Below are positions 23,705 through 29,884 of a stretch of 29,884 bases of DNA, piece by piece (positions within the stretch are counted from its first letter, which is position 1; each line of letters begins with the position of its first letter). A program made the translations under genes and the position numbers. The stretch is taken from positions 1-29,884 of IMG/VR virus record IMGVR_UViG_3300042554_000875. One strand, written 5' to 3'. Under the pieces are notes generated by a model. It searched no databases and was not told the origin of the DNA. It worked only from the letters and a program-made list of their open reading frames with translations. This DNA comes from a virus.

Positions 23705-24132
23705 CTAATTTCGGTTCTACCGTCGCCCAAATTTTTTCTATTTAATCTACGCACATCCGGATCGGCTTGCTCTTGTTCGTAGTATTCCAGAACCACACTA
23801 CGGCAAATTTCCTGGAACCAACGATCCACAATATCAGATTCGGGCTCATTGGCCTGACGTTGATAGCCAGCTCTAACCAAATTGGCAATGAACTTGTCAT
23901 TCCAATCTAGTTCAAATGCGCCAGACCTTAGATCATCAGGGTCCAAGCTAAAACTAACTATGGTAACATATGGTTCACCTTGCTGAGTTGCCAATTCCTT
24001 GGCACTCAAGGTCTGTTTGGACCGACGCGGTGTTTTGGGTTTTGGTTTCGGCTCAGCAGGCAACGGTGTAGGATGCTCGAGCCCTTGCGATCCTACGTTT
24101 AGTGCTCGTACTAGACGATCGAAAAAGCTCAT
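23701..24132 (-). CDS. Conserved phage protein (DPDDLRSGAFELDWNDKF type), 143 aa
   Basis: After MSFFDRLVRALNV comes a Pro/Lys-rich linker (about 20-40). The conserved domain follows: VTIVSFSLDPDDLRSGAFEL, DWNDKFIANLVRAGY, DRWFQEICRSVVLEYYEQ and LGDGRTEIS. I recognise this domain from T4-like aquatic phages; its function is unknown. I chose ATG 24132 because it overlaps the queE stop as ATGA and has GGGGA upstream. A GTG at 24141 is the alternative. It is probably translated from the queE transcript. Confidence 0.78.
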   Translation of the reverse strand: MSFFDRLVRALNVGSQGLEHPTPLPAEPKPKPKTPRRSKQTLSAKELATQQGEPYVTIVSFSLDPDDLRSGAFELDWNDKFIANLVRAGYQRQANEPESDIVDRWFQEICRSVVLEYYEQEQADPDVRRLNRKNLGDGRTEIS

Positions 24133-25019
24133 GTTCCCCACTCGTTCTTAAAGAGCGGCACCTGAAGTCTATCACTGTATCTTAGTCCATATTTCATACA
24201 TTCTAAGGCCACAGTGCGATTATTTAAAGAGTATACCGACTCTATACCACCCACTGGCATCAAGTAAATTTCACCTCGAAATCCAGCGTCTCTATAGGCC
24301 ACACTAGCTGTAAGTGCATCATAGATATCCTGTTCATTGGCTACCACAAACTTTAGATAGGTCCAACCCACAGTTTCATAGTCGCAGACAACTTCAGGTT
24401 TGATAGCATCTTCCCAGCGTTCTCCACTGCAAGGCAACTTGGCACTCACACTAAAAGTGATTTCTTTGTGTTTAGTTGGAATACTAAATCCTTGACTGAG
24501 CTGGTAAGCATGTTTTGGGCCTGAGCTCCAGTCTTTTAAGTATTCCTTAAACTCTTTGGTCAACGGCTGAGTACCATTGGTTTCAAAGGTGATTTCACGT
24601 AGTCTACGCATGAACTTGTGATCTAGCAAATCTGGATAACTACGTTGCCATCCTAGCAAAGGTTCACCACCAGTTATGACCAAGTGTTCCCTGGTCCATC
24701 GCTTGAACGGTAAGAGTTGCCGGATTCTTTCAACAATCGCTTCTGTTGTAAGTACCGGTGAAAAGTCTTTGAACCTAGGATCCCAACTAGCGTAACTATC
24801 GCAGCCGGTACTAACAAGTGGAAGATCTCTATACTGCTTAAACTTTGTAATATTAACTGCCACTTCGTTTCGTTCATTGGATTTCTCTCCACGTGGCATT
24901 CCGAAAGAGTCACATGTAAAATTACAACCGAATGTTCTTAGAAAGACACTGGGAACCCCCATATATCTTCCCTCTCCTTGGATGCTATAAAATAACTCAC
25001 TTATTTTAATCTTTGACAT
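24129..25019 (-). CDS. queE: 7-carboxy-7-deazaguanine synthase QueE (radical SAM), phage type
   Basis: QueE converts CPH4 to 7-carboxy-7-deazaguanine on the way to preQ0. Family marks: SELFYSIQGEG at the N-terminus, VFLRTFGCNFTC (Cys32, Cys36), TGCDSYASWD (Cys73), TGGEPLLG (116-123) and FETNGT (145-150). In bacterial QueE the third cluster Cys lies close to the second, in a WCDT motif. Here about 36 residues separate Cys36 and Cys73, with a CDSYASW motif taking that place, and the protein is long (296 residues). The ribosome site AAAGGA lies inside the end of the homing endonuclease gene. A second copy of its first eight codons remains at 25707-25733. The partner enzymes folE and queD lie upstream in the same direction. 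Confidence 0.93.
   Translation of the reverse strand: MSKIKISELFYSIQGEGRYMGVPSVFLRTFGCNFTCDSFGMPRGEKSNERNEVAVNITKFKQYRDLPLVSTGCDSYASWDPRFKDFSPVLTTEAIVERIRQLLPFKRWTREHLVITGGEPLLGWQRSYPDLLDHKFMRRLREITFETNGTQPLTKEFKEYLKDWSSGPKHAYQLSQGFSIPTKHKEITFSVSAKLPCSGERWEDAIKPEVVCDYETVGWTYLKFVVANEQDIYDALTASVAYRDAGFRGEIYLMPVGGIESVYSLNNRTVALECMKYGLRYSDRLQVPLFKNEWGT
24995..25007. repeat. 13-bp direct repeat, copy at the present queE start
   Basis: ACTCACTTATTTT on the given strand. The identical 13 bp recur at 25709-25721 on the other side of the homing endonuclease gene. In reverse complement both copies encode part of MSKIKISE in the queE frame. Confidence 0.85.
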
Positions 25020-25656
25020 TACTATCCTTTAATATGTCGAATCCGATTTCTCTTGGTGTCTTGCCTCTCCAATCTTTTGGAGTGCGTCGTCCTTCTAAGT
25101 TTAACACACTGTCAAGAGAATGTAAATATTTTCTTAAGGTATTTCCGTCTGTTACAACATTATGATTGCCGTTTTTTCTCTGTATTTTTCCTTCGGCGAT
25201 TGCTTGTGAACCAGTTTCAAATATGCCCCAGGGGGTTTTAATATGACCTTTGTATTGGTAATTATTCTTTCCTGCTATCTTTTTCCTGGCTTGATACCAT
25301 GCTTCGGTCTTAGTTTTCTTATTTTTCATCTTTTTGGTATCTTTTATAGTCCAAGTTTTACCTAACTGCCCGGTACCTATTAGTCCTCCGTCGCCTTTTT
25401 CTTCTGTTAAATTTGCCCAACCTTGGTCTTTGACTACATTATATAATTGTGAATAATATAGCCCTGCTTCTTTTAGTTCTTCTTTAGTATTGTATGAACC
25501 AATAATACAAGTTATTATAAATGAATTATGCTTTTTAATATGGTGTAACCATCTTTTTCCTGATCCTGTGTATGTATATGGATTAGAATTACTGCTAGTT
25601 TTACACAAATACTTTAATCCAGTTGCTAGGCATTTTTTAATCATTAAGTGGTGCAT
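25006..25656 (-). CDS. Free-standing homing endonuclease (T4 Hef/GIY-YIG-like)
   Basis: The protein has 216 residues from ATG 25656, chosen because GGAGGG lies 6 nt upstream and the late box GATAAATA 18 nt upstream. The N-terminal half reads GLKYLCKT, YTYTGSGKRWLHHIKKH, EAGLYYSQLYNVV and WANLTEEKGDGG, the pattern of putative homing endonucleases related to GIY-YIG enzymes in T4-like phages. The C-terminal half is very Lys-rich and has a NUMOD-like DNA-binding segment (IKTPWGIFETGSQAIAEG). It is visibly richer in A+T than its neighbours. It lies exactly between the old and present starts of queE and overlaps queE by 14 nt. Catalytic residues cannot be assigned from the sequence alone. Confidence 0.82.
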   Translation of the reverse strand: MHHLMIKKCLATGLKYLCKTSSNSNPYTYTGSGKRWLHHIKKHNSFIITCIIGSYNTKEELKEAGLYYSQLYNVVKDQGWANLTEEKGDGGLIGTGQLGKTWTIKDTKKMKNKKTKTEAWYQARKKIAGKNNYQYKGHIKTPWGIFETGSQAIAEGKIQRKNGNHNVVTDGNTLRKYLHSLDSVLNLEGRRTPKDWRGKTPREIGFDILKDSNVKD

Positions 25657-25673
25657 TTCAAACCCTCCACAGT

Positions 25674-25681
25674 TATTTATC
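25674..25681 (-). promoter_or_regulatory. Late-promoter-like box GATAAATA for the homing endonuclease
   Basis: GATAAATA is followed after 5 nt by GGAGGG and then the ATG at 25656. Late promoters directly before free-standing homing genes are known in T4. Confidence 0.55.
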
Positions 25682-25706
25682 TGCGAAGGGTTAAAAGCCA
25701 CCGGAA

Positions 25707-26134: not shown

Positions 26135-26399
26135 ATATATTTGACCATTGTTTAAGTTTTAGTTTCTTGGCTGCTGTAGCAGCAGTCAAGCGTTCTCTGT
26201 CAACGATGCCTTGTTCTACCAGAATATCAATCATGGCAAGTACATCTCCAATCTCTACTTCTAGGTGTTCGGCATTGGTAGCAGGTTTACCGGGTTTGAA
26301 GTTATCTAGGCCAAATCTAAAACATTTACTAACTGCCTGTGTAACTTCAGCGCATTCTTCTTGTAAAATTAACAGCGTTTCTCTAACTCGAGGATCCAT
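26121..26399 (-). CDS. MazG-like nucleotide pyrophosphohydrolase
   Basis: From ATG 26399 the protein has 92 residues. It shows the all-alpha NTP-pyrophosphohydrolase metal motif: EECAEV (14-19; Glu14, Glu15, Glu18) and EIGDVLAMID (49-58; Glu49, Asp52). This is a single MazG-like domain, as in many aquatic phages. Such enzymes hydrolyse non-canonical (d)NTPs, and a role in (p)ppGpp or dNTP control is debated. The longer frame upstream lies inside dadA and is not used. It overlaps the dadA 3' end by 17 nt. Confidence 0.85.
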   Translation of the reverse strand: MDPRVRETLLILQEECAEVTQAVSKCFRFGLDNFKPGKPATNAEHLEVEIGDVLAMIDILVEQGIVDRERLTAATAAKKLKLKQWSNIYENA

Positions 26400-27573
26400 T
26401 TGTAATCTCTTGTGTAATTTGTTTAGCAGTAAATGGAGCCAAGGTCCAACCAAGGTGTCCATGTCCAGTGTTATAGTATACACGTGAATTGCGTTGACTG
26501 CGACCTACTCTAGGCATCATATTGGGTGTCATTGGCCGTAAACAGGCAAAACTAGAATAGTCACTGGCATCTATTGCAGGAAAATTGCTATGTACCCAGG
26601 ATAACAGGGGTTGTATTCTATCGCGTCTGATATCGTAGTTTTCACCGGCTAGTTCAGCAGTACCAGCTACTCTAAATCTACCACCCAAATTAGCACAAAC
26701 AATTTTGGCCTGATCATCTAGCAAACTGGTTCTGGGCATGGCTCGATGTGACTGTATATCTTTAATATTGATAGTAACACTATATCCTTTTACCGGGTAG
26801 ATGTTGAGCCTATCGCCTATGCTTCTGGCTAACTTTTCGCTTCCTACTCCGGCACTGACCACTACAGTGGTGAACTCTTTGGTAAGATCATGCAGATCTA
26901 CAGTATAGTTGAATCTGAACTCAACTTGGTATTTGCGTTTTAAGATTTCGGCTAATGATGTACAAAACTTGTGTATATCCCCAGTCCAGTCTGATTCAGT
27001 ATAAGCACCACCAATGATGCTCTTACAGTTGTATAATGTAGGTTCTAACTCACATACTTGTTGATTGTCTAATATCTCCCATTCGCAACCATTGGCGTTA
27101 TACATTTCCTGTACTAGAGTAGCCGCTTGCATGTATTCAGAGTCACGATAGATATGCAATATACCTGAACGCATACGATCAAATTCAATACCTTCTTTAA
27201 TGATAATGTTTTGGTATAAGTCTCGCGCTTCTATGCCCATTCTAATAGTTTGGCTTGTATTACGGGCGTAATCATTATTGGCTGTGTGATATAGGAATTT
27301 GAATAACCATTTAAGTTGATTCCAATCCATACCAGGTCTGATTAGCAGTGGTGCATCTTTTTTAAGTAACCACTTGATACCTTTTACTACATTAGACCAT
27401 GTGTTCCAAGTTTCGCTATTACTCACCGAAACTTGGCACCCATTGGCATAACTTGTACGTTGAGCAGGATAGCGTTCTTGATCGTATACGAAAACACGAT
27501 ACCCTGCTTGGGCAAGATAATATGCTGTGGTGAGGCCGGTAATACCGGCCCCAACTACTGCTATCTGTTTCAT
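26383..27573 (-). CDS. dadA: DadA-type FAD-dependent D-amino acid dehydrogenase
   Basis: The protein has 396 residues, slightly shorter than bacterial DadA (about 430). It has an FAD Rossmann motif VVGAGITGLTTAYYLA (6-21), the DadA stretch YANGCQVSVSNSETW (42-56), and the C-terminal NTGHGHLGWTLAP (368-380) that closes the FAD site. DadA oxidatively deaminates D-amino acids such as D-Ala to 2-oxo acids and ammonia, passing electrons to the host chain. The bacterial enzyme is membrane associated; no membrane helix is seen here. It overlaps the YhhQ gene by ATGA. A related glycine or sarcosine oxidase-like specificity cannot be excluded. It is unusual in a phage. Confidence 0.85.
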   Translation of the reverse strand: MKQIAVVGAGITGLTTAYYLAQAGYRVFVYDQERYPAQRTSYANGCQVSVSNSETWNTWSNVVKGIKWLLKKDAPLLIRPGMDWNQLKWLFKFLYHTANNDYARNTSQTIRMGIEARDLYQNIIIKEGIEFDRMRSGILHIYRDSEYMQAATLVQEMYNANGCEWEILDNQQVCELEPTLYNCKSIIGGAYTESDWTGDIHKFCTSLAEILKRKYQVEFRFNYTVDLHDLTKEFTTVVVSAGVGSEKLARSIGDRLNIYPVKGYSVTINIKDIQSHRAMPRTSLLDDQAKIVCANLGGRFRVAGTAELAGENYDIRRDRIQPLLSWVHSNFPAIDASDYSSFACLRPMTPNMMPRVGRSQRNSRVYYNTGHGHLGWTLAPFTAKQITQEITNGSSS

Positions 27574-28193
27574 TGAACCTCTTGTGACTTAGCCAATCGT
27601 TGTTGAAGATGATTTAGTAACAATCCATACGCTGGTAAGATTACTAACAAGCTAACAATGACTTTACTAATTGAATTATTAGTAGCCACAATGTGCCAAT
27701 TAGCAGCCATAAACTCATTTTCCCCGCCAGCAAATGCTGTGAAGAAGAATACATAAGTATCAATGAATGTGCTAACAATAGAACTCAATGCCGGAGCAAT
27801 CCACCAAGTTTGATACCGTTCTCTAAAGTATTGAAACACATATACATCAAGTAGATTACTGATAAAGTACGCCATACCAGAACCTAGACCGATTCTAAAT
27901 GCTACAGAATCGGGTGCCCCACCTGCTTTGACTACTACCATACTGACCACAATGGCCGGAAGAAACGCTAGGGCAATTACAGCACGCCCGGTTTCCTTGC
28001 CTAATAATCGCACAGTGAGGTCAGTTAGAACTACCACCAGTGGAAAGGTAAATGCTGCTGCTGCCAGCGGTGCACCAAACACTGTAAATTTGAATTGTAC
28101 GATGTAATTGCTTATAGCAATAATAATGATGTGTAGTAACATTAGTTTGTAGGCTAATGTACGATCCACACCTGCTAACATACGATCAAACAT
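27570..28193 (-). CDS. yhhQ: YhhQ/VUT-family queuosine precursor transporter
   Basis: The protein has 207 residues and about six hydrophobic helices. Family signatures: FPLVVVLTDLTVRLLGKETGR (about 50-70), ISNLLDVYVFQYFRER (111-126) and LSSIVSTFIDTYVFF (136-150). In E. coli YhhQ imports preQ0 and preQ1. The protein would sit in the host inner membrane. The gene lies between dadA (4-nt overlap) and the GNAT gene, and in the same direction as folE, queD and queE. It may supplement de novo synthesis with imported precursor. Confidence 0.88.
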   Translation of the reverse strand: MFDRMLAGVDRTLAYKLMLLHIIIIAISNYIVQFKFTVFGAPLAAAAFTFPLVVVLTDLTVRLLGKETGRAVIALAFLPAIVVSMVVVKAGGAPDSVAFRIGLGSGMAYFISNLLDVYVFQYFRERYQTWWIAPALSSIVSTFIDTYVFFFTAFAGGENEFMAANWHIVATNNSISKVIVSLLVILPAYGLLLNHLQQRLAKSQEVQ

Positions 28194-28202
28194 GATTTCT
28201 CC

Positions 28203-28802
28203 TTAAAAATTAAAATAGTCTTCGGTTGTGGTTCCTGGACCATACCAGACAACTGATCTATTACGCATGGTAGATTGTATAGCAGTGATAGATTCATTGA
28301 TGGTTCGACCTTCAGGTAAGGCTAACCATCTTGTATTTGTCTGATTATTGTATACTTCTTGTGGATCTATTTTGGGTAAAATAGAATTGGTTGCTGTATC
28401 ATAACCAACCACAGGATACCGACGGTTGTTTCGGAGTCGTAACCATAGTCCACGAGATCCATGTACCCCGTCGGTATTAGTGGCATCTGACATGATTTTC
28501 AAACCATCATTCATCACAGCATAATCATAGAAAAATGTACCAAGGCCTTGACCTTTGTAGGCCTGAGCTAATTGTACTAATGAAACCACCCAAATGTCTT
28601 TACCATAATAGTAGAGGGAGAAATAACCAACTAATCTCGATTGTTGATCAAGTAGTCCGTATTCAATCTCGGTATTAGACGCATTCTTTTTCAAGTCTAA
28701 TCCTCGAATTCGTGCTACAGTTGTAGCACGATCGAAATTACTCCGATATTGGTCGATATATTCATCCCTGGGAGGATTTACAATTATCTCAGGTATCAAC
28801 AT
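28203..28802 (-). CDS. GNAT-family acetyltransferase
   Basis: The start is ATG 28802, which overlaps the queD stop as TAATG and has GAAGG upstream; it gives 199 residues. The acetyl-CoA motif is QLAQAYKGQGLGTFFYDYAV (77-96) with the QGLG loop. The preceding strands (RLVGYFSLYYYGKDIWVVSLVQL) also fit GNAT. The C-terminal ~90 residues are not typical and include an RGLWLRLRNNRRYPV stretch. The substrate cannot be read from the sequence. Modification of a host protein or of a hypermodified base are both possible; the second is suggested only by the neighbours. Confidence 0.75.
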   Translation of the reverse strand: MLIPEIIVNPPRDEYIDQYRSNFDRATTVARIRGLDLKKNASNTEIEYGLLDQQSRLVGYFSLYYYGKDIWVVSLVQLAQAYKGQGLGTFFYDYAVMNDGLKIMSDATNTDGVHGSRGLWLRLRNNRRYPVVGYDTATNSILPKIDPQEVYNNQTNTRWLALPEGRTINESITAIQSTMRNRSVVWYGPGTTTEDYFNF

Positions 28803-29314
28803 TATAAGCCTTCGAAAAGGTCTTCGTTCCATTCTCTATGACCTTCTCTGAAAGCCATATTACTCTGTGTCTCTCTTACTTCCACACGATAGCACCATAA
28901 ACGATTGTGCTCGCCCAGTCCCCACATCTCTGGAATGTAAACACCGTTAACATACTTGTAAAGCATATCGGCTAAGCCTTCACAACCTAACTTAGGCAGT
29001 ACTGTGAGTTTAGCAAGTTTCTTTGATTCCAGCAACTTGAATGTTTCGAATTCGGGATCGTCACGAGCCACCAATAAGGTATGATCAAATTGGTCTTCTA
29101 AGATCTTCTTGAGTTCCTTAAGGCCACCATAGTCAGCAGCCCAATTGCGTACATCTAGTTCGTTGGTACCAAAGTAAAACTTCATTGAAAAACTATAACC
29201 GTGTATCATGTTACAGTGACTATCTGCTCGCCACTGTCGATACGCACATGGAAAAGCATCGTGATACTCTTTAGTGCTGGTATATTTGTATACTACTGGT
29301 TCAAACTTGGTCAT
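28802..29314 (-). CDS. queD: QueD/6-pyruvoyl-tetrahydropterin synthase-like protein, altered metal site
   Basis: The protein has 170 residues. QueD turns dihydroneopterin triphosphate into CPH4. It has CNMIHGYSF (34-42; catalytic Cys34, His38) and DQFDHTLL (74-81; His78), with the C-terminal WCYRVEVRET strand. Two of the usual zinc ligands differ: the FxAAH histidine is Tyr25 (FPCAYRQW) and HGH is HGY (Tyr40). His18 and His33 lie nearby and could replace them. The HGY form seems usual for phage versions. AAGGAGG and a late-type box (29357-29364) precede the ATG. It is flanked by folE-side genes and the GNAT gene. Confidence 0.85.
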   Translation of the reverse strand: MTKFEPVVYKYTSTKEYHDAFPCAYRQWRADSHCNMIHGYSFSMKFYFGTNELDVRNWAADYGGLKELKKILEDQFDHTLLVARDDPEFETFKLLESKKLAKLTVLPKLGCEGLADMLYKYVNGVYIPEMWGLGEHNRLWCYRVEVRETQSNMAFREGHREWNEDLFEGL

Positions 29315-29394: not shown

Positions 29395-29703
29395 TTAAAC
29401 AGTTTTCATGTGCTCTCGAAGTTTATCCCAGTCGATAGAGAAATCTACCTTACCACTGGGATGAACTGTGCGTACACTATAGTTGCCTACATGTACTCCA
29501 GGTTCTTCAGGCTTGACTTCAACTAATTCAGTCTTAACCTTAGCAGGCTTCTTAGGCTTGGGTGCCGACTCTTGAACCTTTTGAGCAGTTTTCTTAGATA
29601 CTGGACCATCGTCCTTGGGGTAGTCGGTTTTAGCAGGTTTCTTGGCTGGAGCCTTAGCAGCAGGCTTTGCTGATGCTTTAGCAGCAGGTTTCTTAGTTGC
29701 CAT
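29395..29703 (-). CDS. Basic Ala/Lys/Pro-rich protein, 102 aa
   Basis: The start is ATG 29703, overlapping the folE stop as TAATG with AGGAC upstream. Residues about 1-30 are Ala/Lys/Pro repeats (KPAAKASAKPAAKAPAKKPA), like the tails of bacterial histone H1-like and AlgP-type proteins. A Lys/Pro-rich middle and a short folded C-terminus (GNYSVRTVHPSGKVDFSIDW) follow. The tail predicts DNA or polyanion binding. Its place between folE and queD could link it to DNA modification or packing; this is inference. Confidence 0.72.
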   Translation of the reverse strand: MATKKPAAKASAKPAAKAPAKKPAKTDYPKDDGPVSKKTAQKVQESAPKPKKPAKVKTELVEVKPEEPGVHVGNYSVRTVHPSGKVDFSIDWDKLREHMKTV

Positions 29704-29884
29704 TATCCATGTCCTTTCATTGATAAGCAAATGTCGTAAAACTCTTTCTTCAGTGCTGGGTCTGTTTCAAAAGCACCTAACATGATAGCAGTGGTCATGT
29801 CTGACTCATGCTCACGTACTCCACGCATGGTCATACAATGATGTTCAGCTTTCACTACGACGGCAATATTTTCGGTCTTGGCAT
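29703..29884 (-). CDS. folE: GTP cyclohydrolase I FolE, C-terminal part, cut by window edge
   Basis: Only the last 60 codons are in the window. They contain VVVKAEHHCMTMRGVRE, the conserved FolE segment with the zinc-ligand Cys (E. coli HFCMVKRGIR), then a Thr-rich MTTAIMLGAF and the terminal KKEFYDIC helix. FolE makes 7,8-dihydroneopterin triphosphate from GTP, the first step to preQ0 and also to folate. With queD and queE on the same strand the deazaguanine role is the more likely. The stop overlaps the next start (TAATG). Confidence 0.9.
   Translation of the reverse strand, partial: AKTENIAVVVKAEHHCMTMRGVREHESDMTTAIMLGAFETDPALKKEFYDICLSMKGHG

Follow-up and report, generated by a model that had tools for sequence, protein, structure and literature searches.

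What use does a large phage have for a probable D-amino acid dehydrogenase, and why does the gene lie among genes of queuosine-precursor synthesis? This question is raised by a 29,884-nt stretch of viral DNA (IMG/VR record IMGVR_UViG_3300042554_000875, positions 1 to 29,884), referred to here as the window. Its minus strand carries, in order, a folE fragment, a Lys-rich ORF, a queD-like gene, an unknown ORF, a transporter gene, dadA, a mazG-like gene, two small ORFs, an unknown ORF and a queE-like gene, the main features being as follows:

29703..29882, minus strand: folE-like (GTP cyclohydrolase I) 3' fragment, cut by the window end and identified by eye
28802..29314, minus strand: queD-like gene (6-carboxytetrahydropterin synthase family), phrog_2389 at 3.7e-36, below the NCBIfam QueD cut-off
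28203..28832, minus strand: 209-aa ORF between queD and the transporter gene, family match absent
27570..28193, minus strand: queuosine-precursor transporter (YhhQ/TIGR00697) family gene, TIGR00697 at 107 bits for a cut-off of 50.95
26383..27573, minus strand: dadA-like gene, DadA-type FAD-dependent dehydrogenase of 396 aa, ATG start, stop codon inside the coordinates
27487..27570, minus strand: FAD-binding Rossmann segment of DadA (residues 2-29), with the GxGxxG glycines G8, G10 and G13
26536..26538, minus strand: codon of R346, the residue that aligns with the arginine used by glycine oxidase for the substrate carboxylate; two residues earlier stands the virus-typical C344
26121..26399, minus strand: mazG-like nucleotide pyrophosphohydrolase gene, taken from the ATG at 26399 (the ORF is listed to 26483 with a GTG start)
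24129..25019, minus strand: queE-like radical SAM gene, phrog_2076 at 1.3e-48

Among these neighbours, the transporter ORF scores 172.9 bits with PRK11212 and misses the cut-off of 252, and folE is found at the matching place in relatives. The 209-aa ORF has no match in Pfam, NCBIfam or PHROG and no tblastn match in the 80 viral dadA loci described below; its YKGQGLG motif, picked by eye, is presumably GNAT-like. Regarding its origin, the source record is a large uncultivated phage, as indicated by a virion structural protein of 3,077 aa (phrog_10938, 2.5e-233) and a tail-fibre protein encoded in the window. Moreover, the exonuclease and the ATPase of the window are closest to those of jumbo phages, such as Pseudomonas phage PA5oct and its kin (49-50% identity).

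The dadA gene is intact and under purifying selection. Its frame is open over 396 residues, with 21 stops on the plus strand across the same positions, and an AAGAGG noted by eye lies just 5' of its start. Compared with its four closest viral relatives, dN/dS is 0.06-0.14, values that are rough because dS reaches 1.0-2.2; a fifth relative gave 0.10 at a dS of 3.1, and saturation affected two of the seven relatives compared. The gene shares the ATGA at 27570-27573 with the upstream transporter ORF, a 4-nt overlap, and 17 nt (26383-26399) with the mazG-like gene when the latter is counted from its in-frame ATG. Both overlaps agree with the original prediction, made from the sequence of the window, and support its conclusion that dadA is not a recent loose insertion. 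It had also described a full-length FAD oxidoreductase with intact FAD motifs, and this description holds, the three glycines G8, G10 and G13 being present in 50 of 50 viral sequences.

On the basis of sequence, tree and predicted fold, the protein is placed as a DadA-type FAD dehydrogenase, with DadA and not with the glycine and sarcosine oxidases. It belongs to the Pfam family DAO (PF01266, residues 4-388, 199.9 bits for a cut-off of 27.9, 1.1e-58). Within NCBIfam, it matches the proteobacterial equivalog NF009074/PRK12409 over its full length (residues 1-392, 472.2 bits, 1.6e-141), narrowly missing the cut-off of 494. With NF001933/PRK00711, the model of E. coli type DadA, the score is 322.2 bits for a cut-off of 383 (E. 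coli DadA itself reaches 755), and with the ThiO model TIGR02352 it is 117.5 bits against 250.8, which places the protein outside the ThiO glycine oxidases; D-proline dehydrogenase and MnmC models give 49 and 48.5 bits. Three other viral proteins obtain 451-465 bits with PRK12409, and four bacterial ones obtain 703 (L107), 521 (L084, from SAR86), 492 (L086) and 469 (L082). Since 494 bits is missed by all four viral proteins scored, they are classed as a viral branch beside the PRK12409 equivalog and not inside it, it being understood that two of the four bacterial PRK12409-type proteins miss the cut-off as well. The idea of a phage-borne D-amino acid dehydrogenase thus stands as regards the DadA-type FAD dehydrogenase, and falls short as regards the NCBI equivalog cut-off.

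The likeness to the PRK12409 proteins extends to the FAD and substrate-site residues and to their grouping in the tree, and the differences are a 50.9% identity to the nearest of the 79 bacterial sequences listed and a shorter chain, viral copies having 386-396 aa whereas 72 of these 79 have 410-454 aa. E. coli DadA, encoded in the dadAX operon, shares the flavoenzyme branch and the motifs but belongs to another subfamily (30.5% identity over 390 columns). No PHROG family was found for the window protein, the sole match being a weak one to its first 41 residues. By sequence, solved relatives are distant, the best being glycine oxidase at 51.5 bits. An AlphaFold2 model (pLDDT 92.3, pTM 0.92) compares best with glycine oxidase (Z 39.1) and gives Z 33.8 with D-arginine dehydrogenase; ThiO structures (PDB 4ysh, 1ryi, 7cyx) are the closest solved folds with Z 36-39 at about 20% identity, and Foldseek and fold comparison return glycine, sarcosine and proline enzymes among the nearest ones. 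In BFVD, the best viral match has 11% identity, and among the 50 matches listed one, at 13% identity, is named D-arginine dehydrogenase.

To compare residues, 50 viral sequences were aligned, namely the window protein and those of 49 of the best 80 fetched loci (of 167), together with 79 bacterial sequences from 80 loci, L131 being dropped for an in-frame stop. The bacterial sequences were collected via two peptide patterns, so that the sampling itself accounts for part of the conservation near residues 347-353 and 370-377, and closer bacterial kin may exist. G8, G10, G13, Y259, K262, K290 and R346 are identical in the 50 viral sequences, the 79 bacterial ones listed and E. coli DadA. In the alignment with glycine oxidase, numbered by tag offset, R346 pairs with the arginine to which the carboxylate of the substrate binds, and K290 with an active-site tyrosine. 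Loss of substrate-site residues had been named as an observation that would speak against the assignment; by alignment, R346 and K290 are kept in all 50 viral sequences. Three positions are by contrast virus-typical: residue 344 is a cysteine in 50 of 50 viral sequences and a glycine in all 79 bacterial ones listed, V50 occurs in 50 of 50 and 3 of 79, and G113 in 50 of 50 and 0 of 79. C344, a glycine in the bacterial sequences, is two residues from R346, so that the specificity of the viral enzymes may differ.

Phylogeny gives a concordant picture. In a quick tree of 95 of 131 sequences, the 50 viral ones form a single group (SH-aLRT 99) adjoining SAR86 sequences (86) and then short alphaproteobacterial ones. 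In a careful tree of 43 sequences, nine viral sequences form one clade (100/100), which joins six PRK12409-type sequences of SAR86 and alphaproteobacteria (93/92). This tree also took in PRK00711, ThiO-like, MnmC, SolA and PuuB sequences, the planned ThiO sequence L321 being left out for want of an HMM match. Viral sequences fall with the DadA ones, on the DadA-type branch, away from ThiO-like, SolA and PuuB, and neither tree moves them elsewhere. The rooting is rough because the far outgroups have very long branches, MnmC sits at an open fork among DadA sequences and the ThiO-like sequences are below the ThiO cut-off. Placement in another FAD family, which the original prediction had named as a refuting result, was not found. 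Viral dadA copies form one virus-only branch beside marine SAR86 and alphaproteobacterial homologues and, with structural genes in the window and a viral clade lying within bacterial DadA-type sequences, the gene is an AMG in the sense of a metabolic gene of cellular ancestry in a phage genome. In the SAR86 locus L084, genes for Peptidase_A8 (signal peptidase II) and LytB precede dadA.

How widespread is this gene among viruses? Relatives are encoded by 167 of the 169 pattern-matching stretches of IMG/VR, the best 80 of which were fetched as viral dadA loci. The original prediction spoke of few phage examples, which is too low an estimate as far as metagenomic viruses are concerned. Among deposited phage records, 4 of 50,697 match dadA, all of them named 'Acinetobacter phage MD-2021a', and the one examined (L163, CAKLQH020000012.1) shows bacterial chromosomal genes: its 13-kb stretch holds tusD, tusE, argF, glnG and others, and no phage-named gene. 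Automated phage sets that include this record could therefore report false AMGs. Whole-record searches, which covered 20 (or 12) chosen and mostly longer records, gave a single dadA copy in each of the seven viral dadA records searched for copy number, some as large as 352-355 kb.

The company kept by dadA is recurrent without being fixed. Within 3 kb of the gene, in the best 80 of 167 viral loci, que genes (queD/queE/folE) are found in 45, nrd genes (nrdA/nrdB) in 23 and other genes in 12, near-duplicate loci (e.g. L069-L073, L041-L043 and L077/L078/L080) being counted separately. In nine of the 80 loci dadA stands directly between nrdA and nrdB, and the tblastn partners ending within 60 nt are QueD upstream (17), QueE downstream (13), NrdB downstream (11) and NrdA upstream (10). 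On the gene tree, 41 labelled sequences require at least 9 context changes, for 9-13 (mean 11.2) in 100 label shuffles. The lowest of the shuffles gives the same value as the one observed, which indicates some clustering, yet context is only weakly tied to ancestry, implying that the gene or its surroundings have been reshuffled repeatedly.

Loci retrieved with other baits point the same way. Among the best 80 of at least 591 queD matches, dadA is present in 14, always downstream of queD and within 1 kb, and was not found in the other 66, whose flanks extend up to 6 kb and are often shorter; it is thus optional there. With exo, a lineage marker, dadA is found in 3 and queD in 37 of the best 80 of at least 596 matches. 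Absences in both sets are upper bounds, as many loci are short, and dadA is likewise absent from five whole large records, chosen from the queD and exo sets for having no dadA close to the bait. In the 66 queD loci without dadA, the genes after queD comprise a 290-aa family without Pfam match, radical SAM and B12-binding radical SAM proteins, UvdE, methyltransferases and 33 singletons, and none is an obvious substitute for dadA. Given this weak tie to ancestry, and since most queD-bearing relatives have no dadA nearby, dadA resembles metabolic cargo that moves about more than it does a constant component of the que pathway, and the que and nrd company may simply mark where such phages keep metabolic genes. 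In one queD-bearing relative without dadA at that place, the second gene after queD encodes a B12-binding radical SAM protein (L219:7364-9361). Other neighbours of viral dadA that recur (L050, L022, L026, L036 and others) encode a UvdE UV-endonuclease, a class II aldolase, an NAD-dependent epimerase and a cytidylyltransferase.

Which function is then to be assigned to the viral protein? DadA enzymes convert a D-amino acid and an acceptor into a 2-oxo acid, ammonia and the reduced acceptor. Judged from its sequence, the window protein is probably such a D-amino acid dehydrogenase, from the DadA-type branch of the DAO flavoenzymes. It would oxidise a D-amino acid, perhaps D-alanine-like, to a 2-oxo acid and ammonia, and electrons would pass from FAD to an acceptor presumably of the quinone type; the exact substrate is a guess, because the solved relatives are all distant ones. 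D-amino acids could come from wall turnover or from dissolved organic matter and, if the gene is expressed, the infected cell would have more ammonium, carbon skeletons and electrons at its disposal during nucleotide synthesis by the phage. Such a contribution to nucleotide supply during infection fits the que and nrd genes that repeatedly accompany viral dadA, and we propose it tentatively, as a possible role rather than a probable one.

The same chemistry might serve another purpose, namely to lower host D-alanine or other D-amino acid pools, thereby weakening or remodelling the wall, or to remove inhibitory D-amino acids. The family evidence (NCBIfam ranking and 43-sequence tree) is shared by this alternative, and an Amidase_2 gene located directly 3' of dadA in the SAR86 locus (L084:5229-5768) points weakly to a substrate from the wall in the sister group of bacteria. 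Against it, an amidase is annotated in this one locus only, no wall gene is among the ten viral neighbour clusters annotated, two of which lacked a match, and the commonest partners are nucleotide genes. We thus consider this purpose unlikely. The connection to peptidoglycan amino acids and to the wall advanced in the original prediction found no backing in the whole-record searches, alanine racemase (Ala_racemase_N) being found in 0 of 20 viral dadA records and the D-Ala-D-Ala peptidase VanY in one, below the cut-off, so that a D-amino acid source was not found in these incomplete records. Two more specific links were rejected: one to alanine racemase, a DadX-like gene being absent from the 80 viral and 80 bacterial dadA loci, except for E. 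coli's own, and from the two 80-locus bait sets, and one to D-Ala-D-Ala peptidase, for which that single VanY match is all that was obtained.

Alternatively, the protein could be a relative of these flavoenzymes whose substrate has shifted, for instance to an imino acid (D-proline or hydroxyproline) or an N-substituted amino acid. The glycine, sarcosine and proline enzymes among the nearest solved folds, as well as the virus-typical V50, G113 and C344, are in line with this alternative. It is countered by profile scores that favour PRK12409 (472 bits) over ThiO (117) and D-proline dehydrogenase (49), and by K290, which is common to E. coli DadA; a shift of this kind is rather improbable. Should the viral clade, with these three virus-typical residues, have been retuned into an amine oxidoreductase peculiar to phages, one working directly in nucleotide or 7-deazaguanine metabolism (on an aminated intermediate, for example), the repeated placement of dadA inside que and nrd clusters would be explained; we see this as very unlikely.

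Another reading would make dadA a working member of the 7-deazaguanine pathway, with an intermediate or modified DNA as its target. It draws on the position of the window gene amid queD, the precursor transporter and queE, on the que genes near dadA in 45 of 80 loci and on QueD being present in 16 of the 20 dadA records searched whole. In these 20 records, QueC (PF06508) is matched in five, two of them above the cut-off, and tRNA-guanine transglycosylase (PF01702) was found in none of 12 large records, a search that a divergent DpdA may escape. A pathway partner would hardly be expected to leave 23 loci in nrd context and 12 in neither, to escape detection in 66 of the best 80 of at least 591 queD loci, with flanks of up to 6 kb and many shorter, and in the five large bait records, or to be so rare near exo (3/80) where queD is common (37/80); moreover, the residues of the amino-acid site are invariant. 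Partnership with the queuosine pathway was accordingly rejected as the main reading, on the two contexts outside que and the 66 queD loci, and is highly improbable as an alternative. Finally, that bacterial DNA was mis-binned as viral, as the deposited Acinetobacter phage record with its chromosomal genes and the detection of terminase (phrog_2) in only 5 of 20 incomplete dadA records might suggest, is hardly tenable in view of the virion and tail genes of the window, of the separate viral clade and of que or nrd genes within 3 kb in 68 of 80 viral loci.

In a survey of wastewater viruses (PMC11183165), dadA is listed with queC, queD and queE among transcribed viral AMGs and, in the section concerned, is named without a sequence, a clade, a gene context or a function being given. 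Another study (PMC10845958) deals with a prophage that increases the use of D-glutamate by its host, the part consulted not naming a phage-borne DadA, and DadA figures in a SAR11 gene table, not in a phage, in the relevant part of PMC3686209; 'D-amino' is not mentioned in PMC8265664 or PMC9611531. A published description of the viral DadA clade was not found in a coverage that leaves out most subscription papers and bioRxiv, which is weak evidence of absence. The viral proteins thus form a genuine branch within an enzyme family already known; they are common among metagenomic viruses, seem to have received little study, and presumably work by an ordinary mechanism. Provided that the activity is as proposed, certain large phages would redirect D-amino acids, a nitrogen pool of both cell wall and dissolved organic matter, into the metabolism of the infected cell, and the recurrence of one viral clade in que and nrd clusters hints that viruses may be under selection to supply nucleotide synthesis with nitrogen or electrons.

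Two further ORFs of the window deserve mention. The 231-aa ORF adjoining queE (25006-25701, minus strand) is without Pfam or PHROG match and is matched once, at 46% across 89 residues, in L009. Between folE and queD, a Lys/Ala-rich, histone-H1-like ORF of 111 aa (29395-29730, minus strand) has relatives in 4 of the 80 dadA loci.
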